NCBI GenBank assembly: GCA_001632435.1
Contig: KV423937.1
Coordinates: forward strand, 124,001-188,000
DNA length: 64,000 nt
Direction of reading: 5' to 3'
Source: Calocera cornea HHB12733
Lineage: Eukaryota > Basidiomycota > Dacrymycetes > Dacrymycetales > Dacrymycetaceae
Shown: positions 28,925 through 58,108 of the stretch, piece after piece
Layout of the letters: the number at the start of each line of letters is the position of its first letter
Numbering within the stretch: the stretch's first letter is position 1
Translations under genes and position numbers: made by a program
The notes under the pieces: model-generated
What the model was told of the DNA's origin: nothing
The model's input: the letters and a program-made list of their open reading frames with translations, nothing else
Databases searched by the model: none

Positions 28925-28995
28925 TCCCAGATGGTGTAACGGCTAACATTGCTGCCTTTCACGCAGCGGCTCGGGGTTCGATTCCCCGTCTGGGA
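28925..28995 (+). tRNA. tRNA-Glu (UUC), intronless
   Basis: The 71 bases fold as a cloverleaf: acceptor TCCCAGA pairs with TCTGGGA, the D arm contains GTGTAACGGCTAAC, the anticodon stem GCTGC/GCAGC closes the loop CTTTCAC with anticodon TTC, and the T arm is GGGGTTCGATTCCCC, a good internal B box. No intron is present. It lies between the armadillo gene and RMP1. Confidence 0.95.
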
Positions 28996-29151
28996 ATGAC
29001 AAATCCCTTTTGACTTGCTTGCCTTGCAAGGAACCCATGATTTATGGCTCCGCCTCGGAAGTAAACTTTGTGTCTTTCGACAAGTCTTTCGACAAACACG
29101 GAGATTTATGTTCGTCAATCTCGCGTTTCCATCGCTGTGCAGATATTCATC

Positions 29152-40554: not shown

Positions 40555-40682
40555 CGTGATGCGTCTTCTCCTGAGAGGTGACGCGCAATGACCGACGCGA
40601 CGTCCATCCCCAGGTCGGAGCACGTGTCTGGGTCAGGTCACGTGAAAGGCACGCCGCAAATCGACAAAAAAAATTCATGCTT

Positions 40683-40762
40683 AGCAGGAACTAGTCTTGA
40701 TCTAGTGACCTCAGGGTTTCAAGAAATATGAGCCCTGCGCGCTTCCGCTGCGCCACCCTGCT
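40683..40762 (-). tRNA. tRNA-Met (CAU, elongator type) with a short intron
   Basis: On the minus strand, acceptor AGCAGGG pairs with TCCTGCT with one G.T pair. The D stem is GCGC/GCGC and the anticodon stem is CAGGG/CCCTG around CTCATA, with anticodon CAT. After position 37 there are about nine extra bases (TTTCTTGAA) before A38, the standard place for a nuclear tRNA intron. The T arm is ACTAG/CTAGT. The gene ends about 200 bases from the PAN2 stop. Confidence 0.88.
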
Positions 40763-53353: not shown

Positions 53354-53361
53354 TATAAATA
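53354..53361 (+). promoter_or_regulatory. TATA box upstream of the hairpin repeat array
   Basis: TATAAATA lies 132 bases before the first repeat unit and is followed by a pyrimidine-rich stretch, as in strong fungal Pol II promoters. No coding gene lies downstream for 2 kb on this strand, so the probable product is the repeat-array transcript. Confidence 0.5.
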
Positions 53362-53492
53362 CGAGGGCATTCCGACTTATTCTAGCTCACCACGCTCTCC
53401 CAGTTTCCCCTCCCACTCCCCTCCAGCGGGCCGACGAATCCTCCTCCAACGCTGCTCCTTTCTGTCAACGCGTCTCTCTTGGGTTGTAGGTT

Positions 53493-55092
53493 GGTCCAGC
53501 ATTCCCACCTTCGCGCTACGGTCTGGTCATGCTCTTGAGCCGGGCGCTCACTGTGCCGCTCTGCATGGCCTCAGGGTGTAGGGTCAATGTGTGAAGGCGA
53601 CACTTATCCTTTTGACTCAGGCTTCCCCTGTGGCGAGCGCTTGACTTTCATCATCTTTCAGTATACTCGACATCGCTTACTGTCGACATGGCTCTACTGC
53701 CTCTGACGGATGGTCCAGCATTCACGCCTTCGCGCTACAGTCTGGCCATGTCATGGTTACCGAACTCTTCTTCGTGGGTCCTGCATGGCCTCAGGGTGTA
53801 GGGTCAATGTGTGAAGGCGACACTTATCCGATCGACACAGGCATTCCTTGGGCTAGCGCTTGACTTCCATCAAATACCATCGGCAGCAAGACGTGCACTG
53901 GTTCCCGGCAGTCCCCTTCGGCACTCACCATCGACTACTGTCTACACCGCTTCACTCCCTCCGATTGATGGTCCAGCATTCATGCCTTCGCGCTACAGTC
54001 TGGTCATGACACAAACCTCATAGTCAGCTTCGCTGGTTTTGCATGACCTCAGGGTGTAGGGTCAATGTGTGAAGGCGATACTTATCCCTCGGCTCGGAAG
54101 ATTCTACGAATTTCAGTATTGATCTCGTCCGCACTCCCTCCACTCTGTCCTCAACACTGCTTGCCTGGCACAGAGCTTCTCATTGCTGCAGGACGGTCCA
54201 GCATTCCCACCTTCGCGCTACAGTCTGACCATGCTCAGGAACCTCGCATCATTCTTCGCTGCGGGTTCCTGGATGGTCTCAGGGTGTAGGGTCAATGTGT
54301 GAAGGCGACACTCGTCCTGTCGACTTGGATTCTCTCCTTGAACATCAATGACAGCTCGCCACGACTCGCTTCTCTACGTCCCCGCGCGACGAGGGTCTCT
54401 TGTACTCTCTCCCTTTCCTCGATGTGCACCCTCCCCGTCAACATGGCCCACTGGCTTCTCTCTGAAGGGACGGCATCGCATTCACACCTTCGTGCTGCAG
54501 TGTGACTATTCGAGTTATCATCTAGGATACGGCGTTTTTCTGGTTCCGTGTCTAGAATACGGTCAGGGCCGGATTAATCTAAAATACGGTCTCCCGAACG
54601 CGGAGATAGCTCCTCAATTGCCTCTATTTGAGTCTAACAAAGATAAAACTGCACTGTTCCACTTTTGTAGCATTGTGTCAGAGCTCAAGGAAATTGATTG
54701 TATTCAAAAGTGACTCGAAAGCCCTTAAAATACATATTCTTTGTGAATCCGCCCTACAGTTTGTTCATTTTCCCATTTAAAGCTCACTTTTCTCCAGATT
54801 GAAGCTCAGACAACGCATATTAAGAGTCTGTTTGCCGATTTTCCTCTTTAATAGCATTATTTTGTAACTGCAGTGATGAAAATAGAGGTGATTGAAGTGC
54901 ACATCTCCGCGTTCGGAAGACCGTATTTTAGATTAATCCGGCCCTGACCGTATTCTAGACACGGAACCAGAAAAACGCCGTATCCTAGATGATAACTCGT
55001 GACGATTCTCATGGGCCCTGTGATGTTCTTCGTTGCGGGGTTTCTGGATGGTCTCCCGGTGTAGAATCAATGTGTGAAGATGACTCTCATCC
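53493..55092 (+). repeat. array of five diverged ~118-base hairpin units
   Basis: Units are at 53493-53609, 53712-53829, 53970-54087, 54195-54317 and 54473-54511 plus 54999-55092 (split). Each begins GGTCCAGCATTC (diverged in unit 5), continues CCTTCGCGCTAC, and ends with TCAGGGTGTAGGGTCAATG and TGAAGGCGA. Within a unit CCTTC pairs with GAAGG, CTAC with GTAG, and a 6-7 base inner helix closes a variable loop, giving one nested hairpin. Spacers of 100-140 bases are partly similar between units 1 and 2. All frames are interrupted by the same TAG in the conserved block, so protein coding is unlikely. I do not recognise the family; it could be a non-coding RNA cluster. Confidence 0.8.
54512..54998. 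mobile_element. non-autonomous Mutator-like MITE with 96-base terminal inverted repeats
   Basis: The first 96 bases (54512-54607, beginning GAGTTATCATCTAGGATACG) are the reverse complement of the last 96 (54903-54998) with one mismatch. Flanking 10-base sequences GTGACTATTC (54502-54511) and GTGACGATTC (54999-55008) differ at one base and look like a target-site duplication. The 295-base interior is A/T-rich and has no transposase ORF. Long terminal repeats with a 9-11 base duplication are typical of Mutator-like elements. The insertion interrupts the fifth repeat unit. Confidence 0.9.
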
Positions 55093-55412: not shown

Positions 55413-56273
55413 TCAGATACCCTTTCGGACAGATATGTACATGAAGCCATCATAACCCTTCTCGCCAGCTTAATGGGTAAGTAAGAAAACGCAAATACAA
55501 TGTAAGTCGGCTGGGGAAACACTCACCAGTACCAATGGTCGTCGCCTCGACGCCTGGGTCATTCTTGACCATCTCAAGGAGCTTCCTGATTCCCAGAATG
55601 TCGGGGCTGTTCACATCAGGGTCGGCGACCCTGCCGTTGCGGACCACGTTGTCGACGATGATCACGCCTCCCGTGCGGACAAGCTTGCGTGCAATCTGGA
55701 AATACGGCCCGTTGTTCTCTTTGTCCGCGTCGATGAACACGAGGTCGACTGGCGGCGTGGGGGACAGCTTGGGCATCGTCTCTAGTGCAGGGCCGAGCAG
55801 TACCTTGGCTTTGGAGGATAGGCCGGCATGAGCGAGGTTCTCTTCGGATACCTGGTCATGGTCAGTCATGGTCACTAGCACAGAAGAACAAGCTACCTTG
55901 GCGTGCTTTGGGCTCACTTCGAGGCTGGTGAGCTCACCGCCGTCAGGGAGCGCTCTGGCCATCCATATGGATGAATAACTGCGCAATGTCAATAACAGTG
56001 AGGGAGTTTCAGACACAAAATGACGCACGCTCCGAGTGTGCCAACCTCCACGATACGTTTCGCGTTGAGCCCCTTCGCGACCAGGTTGAGAAACGCTCCC
56101 TCGGCGGCAGAGACACTGATGGCTGGTATCCCATGGGCGGCCGTATTCTTCAGGGCGAAGTCGAGGGCCTCGTCATGAGGAAGGAGGAACGAATTGTGGT
56201 AACGGTCTGATCTCGTCCAGTCAGCCTGCCCTGTCGCCGGACGGGAGAAGCGTGGGCTGTGCGGGGTGGCCAT
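55413..56273 (-). CDS. SAM-dependent O-methyltransferase, caffeoyl-CoA OMT type (copy 1)
   Basis: Exons 56273-56029, 55978-55897, 55851-55527 and 55468-55413 give 235 residues. SAM-binding motif I is RIVEVGTLGAYSSIWMA, motif II GGELTSLEVSPKHAK, then VDLVFIDADKENNGPYFQ with the metal-binding DAD, and GGVIIVDNVVRNGRVADP with the catalytic DN. The last exon supplies AGEKGYDGFMYISVRKGI. This is a class I, cation-dependent enzyme for catechol-like phenols or related acceptors. It is divergently paired with a paralogue at 57243 that has the same intron positions and phases. TATATAT at 56347-56353 may be its promoter element. Codon third positions are less G+C-rich than in the paralogue. Confidence 0.93.
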
Positions 56274-57242
56274 GGCCGTGTAGTAGAACTTCGAAGTAAT
56301 GCGGAGCAGTCTACGAAGTTAACTGGAGGGGATGGGATGCGGTGATCAATATATACAGCATTCCAGCGACGCGATGTCGCCATCAGCAAATTCCCGCATC
56401 CGCCCAGGAGAGTGACGCTCCCGATCTGGTACAGTCTGTGTTATTGTGAGATCAGTGATCCATTAGATGGCGCTGTCGACAGCGCATCGTCTAGAAGGAG
56501 GCCCAGGCGGTAGTCCAGGTATATAAGGAAGAAGTTCCGACTCCAATGAAGCGAGCACGTGCAACAGGCTCACGGACCTTCTGGGCCGCGGCAAGTGTTC
56601 ATGTTGCAGAAGGGCCGTTCAGTGGCCACGGTAGTCGTGTGCAGGGCAAATGTCTTCAGTGTCATACGGCCGTGCATGAAAGTAAGCTGTCGAAGCGATA
56701 TATGATCGACTCACTGCGCCAGACGCCATGGCCCATGTCAAGGACTCCGGGCTCGGAGAACGGCCGATGCAGAGCGATATATATGTCCAGGGCCGAGTTA
56801 CCGAGATAACGGCGTTCGACCCTGAATTGCATGTTCCGGAGAGCGTCACGCGCAGTAGAGGAAGGCGCCAACGCAGCGGATATTCGACTCATCCGACAAC
56901 TGGAGAAAATGGAGAGCGGCGTCCACCGCGCCGCTGTTGGCGCCATGCGCCTCAACGCCTTCGTGATTGATGCGCAGTCACCGGCTTTATCTAATCTGTG
57001 CCGCATCCCACGTCCATCTCCGACAGCGGGCGATTAATGCTGCACTGCCGATGAACAGTGACTAGGAGGTCTCCGCGAGGGCCTCCGCACGGACCCCCGC
57101 TCGGAGCTCCAGACCAGGAGCTGATGATGCGATGTTGTGCCTCTGCACGCTATAAATACGGGCCTGTGGAGGCAGAGTAGACCGACGTCCATCCTCTCAG
57201 CAGCATCCCCGCTTCCCAGATCCACCGCCCACAACAACAGCA
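56274..57242. promoter_or_regulatory. divergent promoter region between two O-methyltransferase paralogues
   Basis: 969 bases without a supported gene. Landmarks: TATATAT at 56347-56353 (for the left gene), a perfect 16-base palindrome GCGCTGTCGACAGCGC at 56470-56485, TATATAAG at 56520-56527 of unknown use, and TATAAATA at 57151-57158, which is 85 bases before the right gene's ATG. Short ORFs at 56546-57037 show no similarity. Confidence 0.55.
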
Positions 57243-58108
57243 ATGGCCACGCGACACATCCCGCGCTTCAACAAGCCGCCCGCAACGACGCAGGAGGACT
57301 GGTCCAAGTCCGACCAGTACCACAACTCGTTCCTCCTGCCCGACGACGAGGCGCTCGAGTTTGCGCTCAAGAACACGGAGGACAATGGGATCCCCGCGAT
57401 CAGCGTGAGCGCCGCGCAGGGCGCGTTCCTCAACCTGCAGGTGAAGGTTCTGGGGGCGAAGCGCATCCTCGAGGTCGGTACGCTCGGAGCGTACGTCCTC
57501 ACCCCTTGCAGCACAAGGACTCTCGCTGACCGCTCTGCAGTTACTCCACTATCTGGATGGCCAAAGCCCTGCCCGAAGGGGGTGAGCTGATCAGCCTCGA
57601 GGTGAACCCGAAGCACGCCAAGGTCCGCCCCTGACACCCATCCTTCATCTTCCCGTCGGCTAACCCACCGCAGATCTCCTCAGACAACATCGCGCACGCC
57701 GGCCTGTCGAGCAAGGCGAGCGTCCTGCTGGGCCCCGCGCTCGAGACGCTGCCGACGCTCTCGCCCAGCCCGCCGTTCGACCTCGTCTTCATCGACGCGG
57801 ACAAGGACAACAACGGGCCGTATTTCCAGCTGGCGCGCAAGCTCGTGCGCACGGGCGGCGTCATCATCGTCGACAACGTCGTGAGGAACGGGCGCGTCGC
57901 GAACCCGGAGGTGAACACGGGGGATATCCTGGGCGTGCGGAAGCTGCTCCAGATCGTCAAGGAGGACAAGGGCGTGGACGCGACGACGATCGCGACTGGT
58001 ACGCCCTGCTTCCTATCTTGGCGTGCGGTCCGGGTGCTGACCCTGCGTGCAGTCGGAGACAAGGGCTACGACGGCTTCATGTACATCTTTGTCCGCGAGG
58101 GCATCTGA
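57243..58108 (+). CDS. SAM-dependent O-methyltransferase, caffeoyl-CoA OMT type (copy 2)
   Basis: Exons 57243-57490, 57541-57622, 57674-57998 and 58053-58108 give 236 residues. The motifs equal those of the copy at 55413-56273: RILEVGTLGAYSTIWMAKAL, GGELISLEVNPKHAK, FDLVFIDADKDNNGPYFQ, GGVIIVDNVVRNGRVANP and the end GDKGYDGFMYIFVREGI. Exon lengths are 248, 82, 325 and 56 against 245, 82, 325 and 56, so the pair arose by duplication with inversion. A TATA box at 57151-57158 suggests strong or regulated expression. Codon third positions are much richer in G and C than in the other copy. The substrate cannot be told from sequence. Confidence 0.95.

Follow-up and report, generated by a model that had tools for sequence, protein, structure and literature searches.

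An array of five copies of a unit of approximately 120 bases, starting at positions 53493, 53712, 53970, 54195 and 54472, lies on the + strand of the window (the whole 64-kb stretch of DNA that was analysed), where a repeat finder recovers the units without using the coordinates of an earlier note on this DNA. The array is intergenic according to open reading frame and Pfam calls. Its neighbour on one side is an inositol polyphosphate kinase (IPK) gene (- strand; Pfam IPK frames at 51.67-52.79 kb), whose best protein match, at 54% identity, comes from Wolfiporia cocos; the neighbour on the other side encodes an O-methyltransferase (- strand; Pfam Methyltransf_3, frames within 55.45-56.3 kb). 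A second O-methyltransferase gene of the Methyltransf_3 type follows in the other orientation; the two together occupy 55450-58108, have translations that look alike by eye and are probably a duplicated pair. The + strand sequence TATAAATA at 53354..53361, 131 bases upstream of unit 1, is a TATA box and the probable promoter of the array, with transcription expected to start near 53385. There are two matches to this sequence in the window versus 0.16 expected; the other is at 57151, at the upstream edge of the + strand O-methyltransferase frame, and gives the second O-methyltransferase gene a TATAAATA of its own. Hairpin units 1 (53493..53609, with arms at 53493-53531 and 53562-53609), 2 (53712..53829), 3 (53970..54087) and 4 (54195..54317) are each supported by the repeat finder, folding, the stem alignment and covariance model R1, and unit 4 possesses the 8-base apical stem that the earlier note had described.

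The earlier note had counted five related units, of which the four at 53493-54317 are intact but the fifth is split by a MITE (54511..54999). Unit 5 consists of a 5' arm (54472..54510, + strand) that terminates in the target duplication TGACTATT, and an apical part plus 3' arm (55008..55092, + strand) assigned by folding and stem alignment, with a hit of model R1 at 54976-55092 (48.3 bits). The MITE, identified by its inverted repeat and its copies in the genome, is 489 bp long with 97-bp terminal inverted repeats that are 99% complementary, and is flanked by 8-base duplications with one mismatch, TGACTATT (54503-54510) and TGACGATT (55000-55007), across which unit 5 was read as an empty site; we take it to be hAT-like from the length of the duplication. 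Copies are found elsewhere on C76 (100% identity) and C102 (99%), with diverged copies on C146, C6 and C3 and shorter pieces on C49, C36 and C80. Because copies of up to 100% identity are present elsewhere in the genome, the insertion into unit 5 is probably recent, and the majority of substitutions in unit 5 are probably older.

On the + strand, units 1-4 each have as their minimum-energy fold a single long hairpin interrupted at intervals by 1x1 mismatches, and unit 5 adopts the same fold once the MITE is excluded. Three nested helices with a base of CCTTC/GAAGG and CTAC/GTAG had been proposed previously, but this base is 1.6 to 7.1 kcal/mol less stable in all five units, and the mismatched single hairpin replaces it as the main structure. 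The loop is 30-37 nt long. Mismatches C.C, C.U, A.G and one G.G are retained in all five units, as are two G.T pairs, and a second G.G mismatch becomes G.A in unit 5. Units 1-4 fold at -39.0 to -50.8 kcal/mol as + strand RNA, compared with -30.8 to -46.0 kcal/mol for the - strand. With unit ends chosen in this analysis, the dinucleotide shuffles that fold at least as well as units 1-4 number 7, 3, 6 and 2 out of 200 on the + strand (z of -1.76, -2.85, -2.04 and -2.75) and 116, 15, 58 and 0 out of 200 on the - strand (z of 0.22, -1.48, -0.45 and -2.95), such that unit 4 taken alone does not favour the + strand. The single hairpins are thus only modestly above shuffles, and the case for a structured RNA rests on comparison between units. 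The isolated apical parts are stable relative to single-base shuffles in units 1, 4 and 5 (p of 0.044, 0.004 and 0.004) but not in units 2 and 3 (p of 0.74 and 0.18). With flanks of about 60 bases included at either end, units 2-4 have mean stem pair probabilities of 0.86-0.95 and unit 1 has 0.63; in a 1.1-kb context, units 2 and 4 have 0.90 and 0.86, but units 1 and 3 have 0.42 and 0.35 and partly adopt other folds.

A 31-pair stem was defined from unit 2 and applied to all five units, and 148 of its 155 cells (95.5%) are paired. Of the seven broken cells, four are in unit 5 (three at the base of the stem and one in its inner part), two are at position 13, in units 1 and 4, and one is at position 39 in unit 4. 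Five pairs are doubly changed (C-G to U-A, C-G to G-C, G-C to A-U, C-G to U-A and G-C to U-G); the first, second and last of these changes are found only in unit 5, which, read across the empty site, contributes two double compensatory pairs beyond those listed in the earlier note. The inner-helix sequences that the note had placed in units 1 to 4 are present there in the window, and stem alignment and covariation scoring agree with it that one pair changes from G-C to A-T and another among T.G, C-G and T-A. In a null model that places the same number and kind of changes randomly, counting changes common to several units as one event, the mean number of doubly changed pairs is 0.88 for the 31 pairs (P = 0.00015 for the five observed) and 0.54 for the 26 pairs above the base (five reached in 0 of 20,000 simulations), and the paired-cell count has P of 0.00185 and 0.00015, respectively; with a stem taken from one unit and covariation assessed among five paralogous units of one array, these statistics are supportive rather than exact. 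Shuffling of the 3' letters among units reaches the covariation score in 1 of 500 trials and the number of doubly changed pairs in 5 of 500; for further pair types, the observed number is reached in 88 of 500 trials and lacks significance. With the register slid, 32-56% of cells pair, versus 95.5% in the true register. The 16-pair structure of the earlier note is also well paired (97.5% of 80 cells), with three doubly changed pairs, a number reached in 49 of 500 shuffles; pair counts alone leave that fold possible, but all three of its doubly changed pairs fall in the inner helix that is common to both folds.

Compared with column shuffles, of which none of 300 is as good on either strand, the consensus fold reaches a z of -6.1 (+ strand) and -2.7 (- strand). 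The stem contains 20 G.U cells versus 2 A.C cells, and 148 versus 130 paired cells, and the predominance of G.U implies that the pairing suits an RNA of the + strand; this strand preference is weakened by the - strand z of unit 4 and by the - strand consensus, which beats 300 of 300 shuffles. With the covariation of the 31-pair stem, the shuffles and the consensus fold z taken together, a structured RNA under selection, as the earlier note had suggested, is still the best reading.

Conservation is concentrated in the arms, which are 75-100% identical between units (z of 5.4-26.5), and alignments of the loops and of the 100-base flanks mostly score like shuffles; five of 30 such comparisons exceed a z of 3, namely the loops of units 3 and 4 and of units 4 and 5, the upstream flanks of units 2 and 3 and of units 2 and 5, and the downstream flanks of units 1 and 2. 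Over a stretch of 31 nt, the 3' arm does not vary among units 1-4, and the 5' arm facing it varies at four stem positions; three of these change only to bases that still pair, and the fourth, position 13, is mismatched (C.U) in units 1 and 4. Windows of 22 nt in the 5' arm contain three to six unpaired positions. The conserved sequence exceeds a 22-mer and reaches flanks that are mostly unpaired (GGTCCA..., ...CTTATCC), and the blocks unchanged in all five units include CCTTCG and TCAATGTGTGAAG. The earlier note's statement that the units have no open frame holds in the sense that no reading frame common to them was found, but units 2 and 5 each contain one stop-free frame. The variable sites have no codon periodicity (6/4/5 and 5/3/5), and a protein search with the 72-aa stop-free translation across unit 2 found no relative. 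With conserved arms, near-random loops and flanks and no codon periodicity, purifying selection on the hairpin is the simplest account. A coding repeat was rejected for lack of a common frame and of codon-position bias, and introns were rejected because no GT common to the unit starts is visible by eye.

DNA queries of the 32.1-Mb genome with units 1 and 4 found no units elsewhere, in a search that scores the best candidates only and could miss strongly diverged copies, and a dispersed element (MITE or SINE) was rejected on this single-locus result. Three 21-22-mers from the arms match the genome with up to three mismatches only at the array, with nothing in the reverse complement. Within the window, model R1 finds units 1-4 at 127-141 bits and unit 5 at 48 bits (54976-55092), and otherwise only two weak opposite-strand matches to units 2 and 4 (E of 0.0001 and 0.016). 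No Rfam family matches the array at the gathering threshold, in agreement with the earlier note, which knew of no named family of this form; the sole match near the array up to E = 10 is sR38 on the - strand of a spacer, which was rejected as chance (E = 7.7, opposite strand). In the whole window a single Rfam match reaches the gathering threshold, a tRNA-Glu (TTC) at 28925-28996 that ARAGORN also finds; ARAGORN further predicts a tRNA-like gene at 40682-40762 on the - strand, whose anticodon is an odd one of four bases (cata) and for which no Rfam match attains its threshold. Units of a tRNA-like or Pol III type were rejected, as ARAGORN has no hit in the array and, by eye, unit 1 is the only one with a TTTT immediately after it. 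Viral and prokaryote collections contained no match to one 21-base pattern. When a looser pattern (14 fixed bases) was used, viral contigs yielded at least 120 stretches, 80 of which were searched with model R1 as a specificity control and gave one match (E = 6.8).

Comparison of the units gives strong evidence that the hairpin is a selected RNA and points to an undescribed non-coding RNA gene; the evidence for a small-RNA mechanism is circumstantial. The reading that we tentatively place in front, though it falls short of probable, is a tandem cluster of microRNA-like (milRNA) precursors processed by Dicer, with the 3' arm as guide; the array may work like a milRNA locus and is not classed as one. 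A stand-alone non-coding RNA gene would be transcribed on the + strand, probably from the TATA box at 53354, into an RNA that holds four intact hairpins and one broken hairpin. Dicer would cut each hairpin into a duplex of approximately 22 nt, of which the invariant 3' arm, UCAGGGUGUAGGGUCAAUGUGUGAAGG, would presumably be the one loaded into Argonaute as guide, and the tandem copies would yield the identical small RNA several times, which would act on putative targets. An invariant 3' arm facing a changing 5' arm is the pattern that a guide/passenger duplex leaves, although four versus zero changes are a small sample. The genome encodes a Dicer (Dicer_dimer and RNase III domains in one frame, with a second RNase III domain adjoining) and Piwi domains of Argonaute, the two components expected of a milRNA producer. 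The arms are paired and covarying, the loops are mostly unalignable, and the array is intergenic without an Rfam hit, all of which is consistent with milRNA precursors. The energies of units 1-4 (-39.0 to -50.8 kcal/mol) are below the -20 kcal/mol used for milRNA hairpins, but their shuffle counts of 7, 3, 6 and 2 per 200 do not reach a randfold-type p < 0.01 for each hairpin, which is a filter of one fungal milRNA study rather than a definition (PMC6145500). The tier rules given for fungal loci in section 22 of PMC9757828 are an intergenic position, no Rfam match and no overlap with a transposable element or coding sequence; units 1-4 conform to them as judged from open reading frame, Pfam, Rfam and genome searches, and unit 5 contains the MITE. 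Against the milRNA reading, the arm 21-22-mers have no near-perfect target in the genome; the loops of 30-37 nt exceed the inter-duplex length of under 20 nt in well-supported fungal loci (PMC9757828, section 11); the conserved, mostly unpaired flanks would be left unexplained by use as a milRNA alone; and units 1 and 3 refold in the 1.1-kb context.

The absence of a near-perfect target fits a second reading, in which the array specifies a long non-coding RNA whose hairpins work intact, either as docking sites for a double-strand-binding protein or as a scaffold, the tandem copies supplying several binding sites per molecule. Conservation of the whole stem, 1x1 mismatches and flanks included, points to recognition of the whole hairpin, but the invariance of one arm over 31 nt in units 1-4 as the other varies exceeds what pairing needs, and this possibility, though a serious one, is on the doubtful side. 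It is very unlikely that the units are single-hairpin guide RNAs of an H/ACA-related family in which the invariant inner region forms the pocket. Units 1, 2 and 4 have an ACA triplet 15 nt below the upper helix of the pocketed stem, where the spacing rule of H/ACA RNAs is 14-16 nt, and two invariant blocks (CCTTCG and TCAATGTGTGAAG) lie within or beside the pocket. The invariant CAATGTG may match 5.8S rRNA over 7 nt, probably by chance. However, the triplet is ATA in unit 3 and ACT in unit 5, leaving ACA in three of five units, the pocket is better accounted for as paired, and the two hairpins, H box and ACA box of an H/ACA snoRNA are not found together, there being no H box by eye and no second conserved hairpin. 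Single-hairpin candidates have been described in fungi (PMC8216456, section 17).

Origins that require no functional RNA fare no better. The matched changes could have been made at the DNA level by quasi-palindrome template switching or by gene conversion among copies, processes that act on imperfect inverted repeats and tandem copies such as these. Template switching would tend to erase mismatches and G.T pairs, yet C.C, C.U, A.G and two G.T are kept in all five units; gene conversion should have evened out the loops and spacers as well, but most of these show no more similarity than shuffled sequence; and the pairing favours one strand. A DNA-level origin is highly improbable. The MITE in unit 5 might suggest a coding relic, or the decayed remains of a transposable element duplicated in tandem, but the units occupy a single locus in the genome searches, with no codon periodicity or common frame and no relative of the 72-aa translation of unit 2, and this explanation is scarcely credible.

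It is possible, with a likelihood close to but below an even balance, that the array represents a new basidiomycete structured-RNA family, either the first covarying tandem milRNA-type cluster of fungi or a wholly new hairpin-array non-coding RNA. The open-access literature yielded no paper on a "milRNA cluster" and, judged from titles and the beginnings of abstracts, no tandem fungal hairpin RNA. The existence of true, selected fungal microRNA genes is unsettled, and covarying paralogous arms offer evidence of selection from a single genome together with a concrete locus. Animal polycistronic microRNA clusters and plant tandem MIR clusters consist of related tandem hairpins with conserved arms and free loops, and the array resembles them in each of these respects, although they are not known to be homologous.

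Fungal mi/milRNA loci (PMC9757828, 41 species; Coprinopsis cinerea, PMC6145500; Ganoderma sinense, PMC4457147) are, as described in these reports, like the array in being intergenic hairpins with energies below -20 kcal/mol and duplex-like arms in genomes with Dicer and Argonaute; the array differs in its five paralogous covarying hairpins and conserved flanks and in being known from sequence alone. The words "tandem" and "cluster" are absent from the main text of the 41-species re-analysis, which states that less than half of 1727 reported fungal loci passed basic standards and that 25 were conserved across multiple species (PMC9757828). The array is also like conserved intergenic structures 1, 3 and 4 of ascomycete genomes (PMC8216456, section 17), which are stand-alone single hairpins found by covariation; they are described there as having an H box and a possible guide region, with most genomes carrying one copy per RNA. 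As presented in that paper, the covariation screen covered ascomycetes only and left out the phylum of the array. If the array makes no small RNA, it would add a new structured long non-coding RNA to that phylum.
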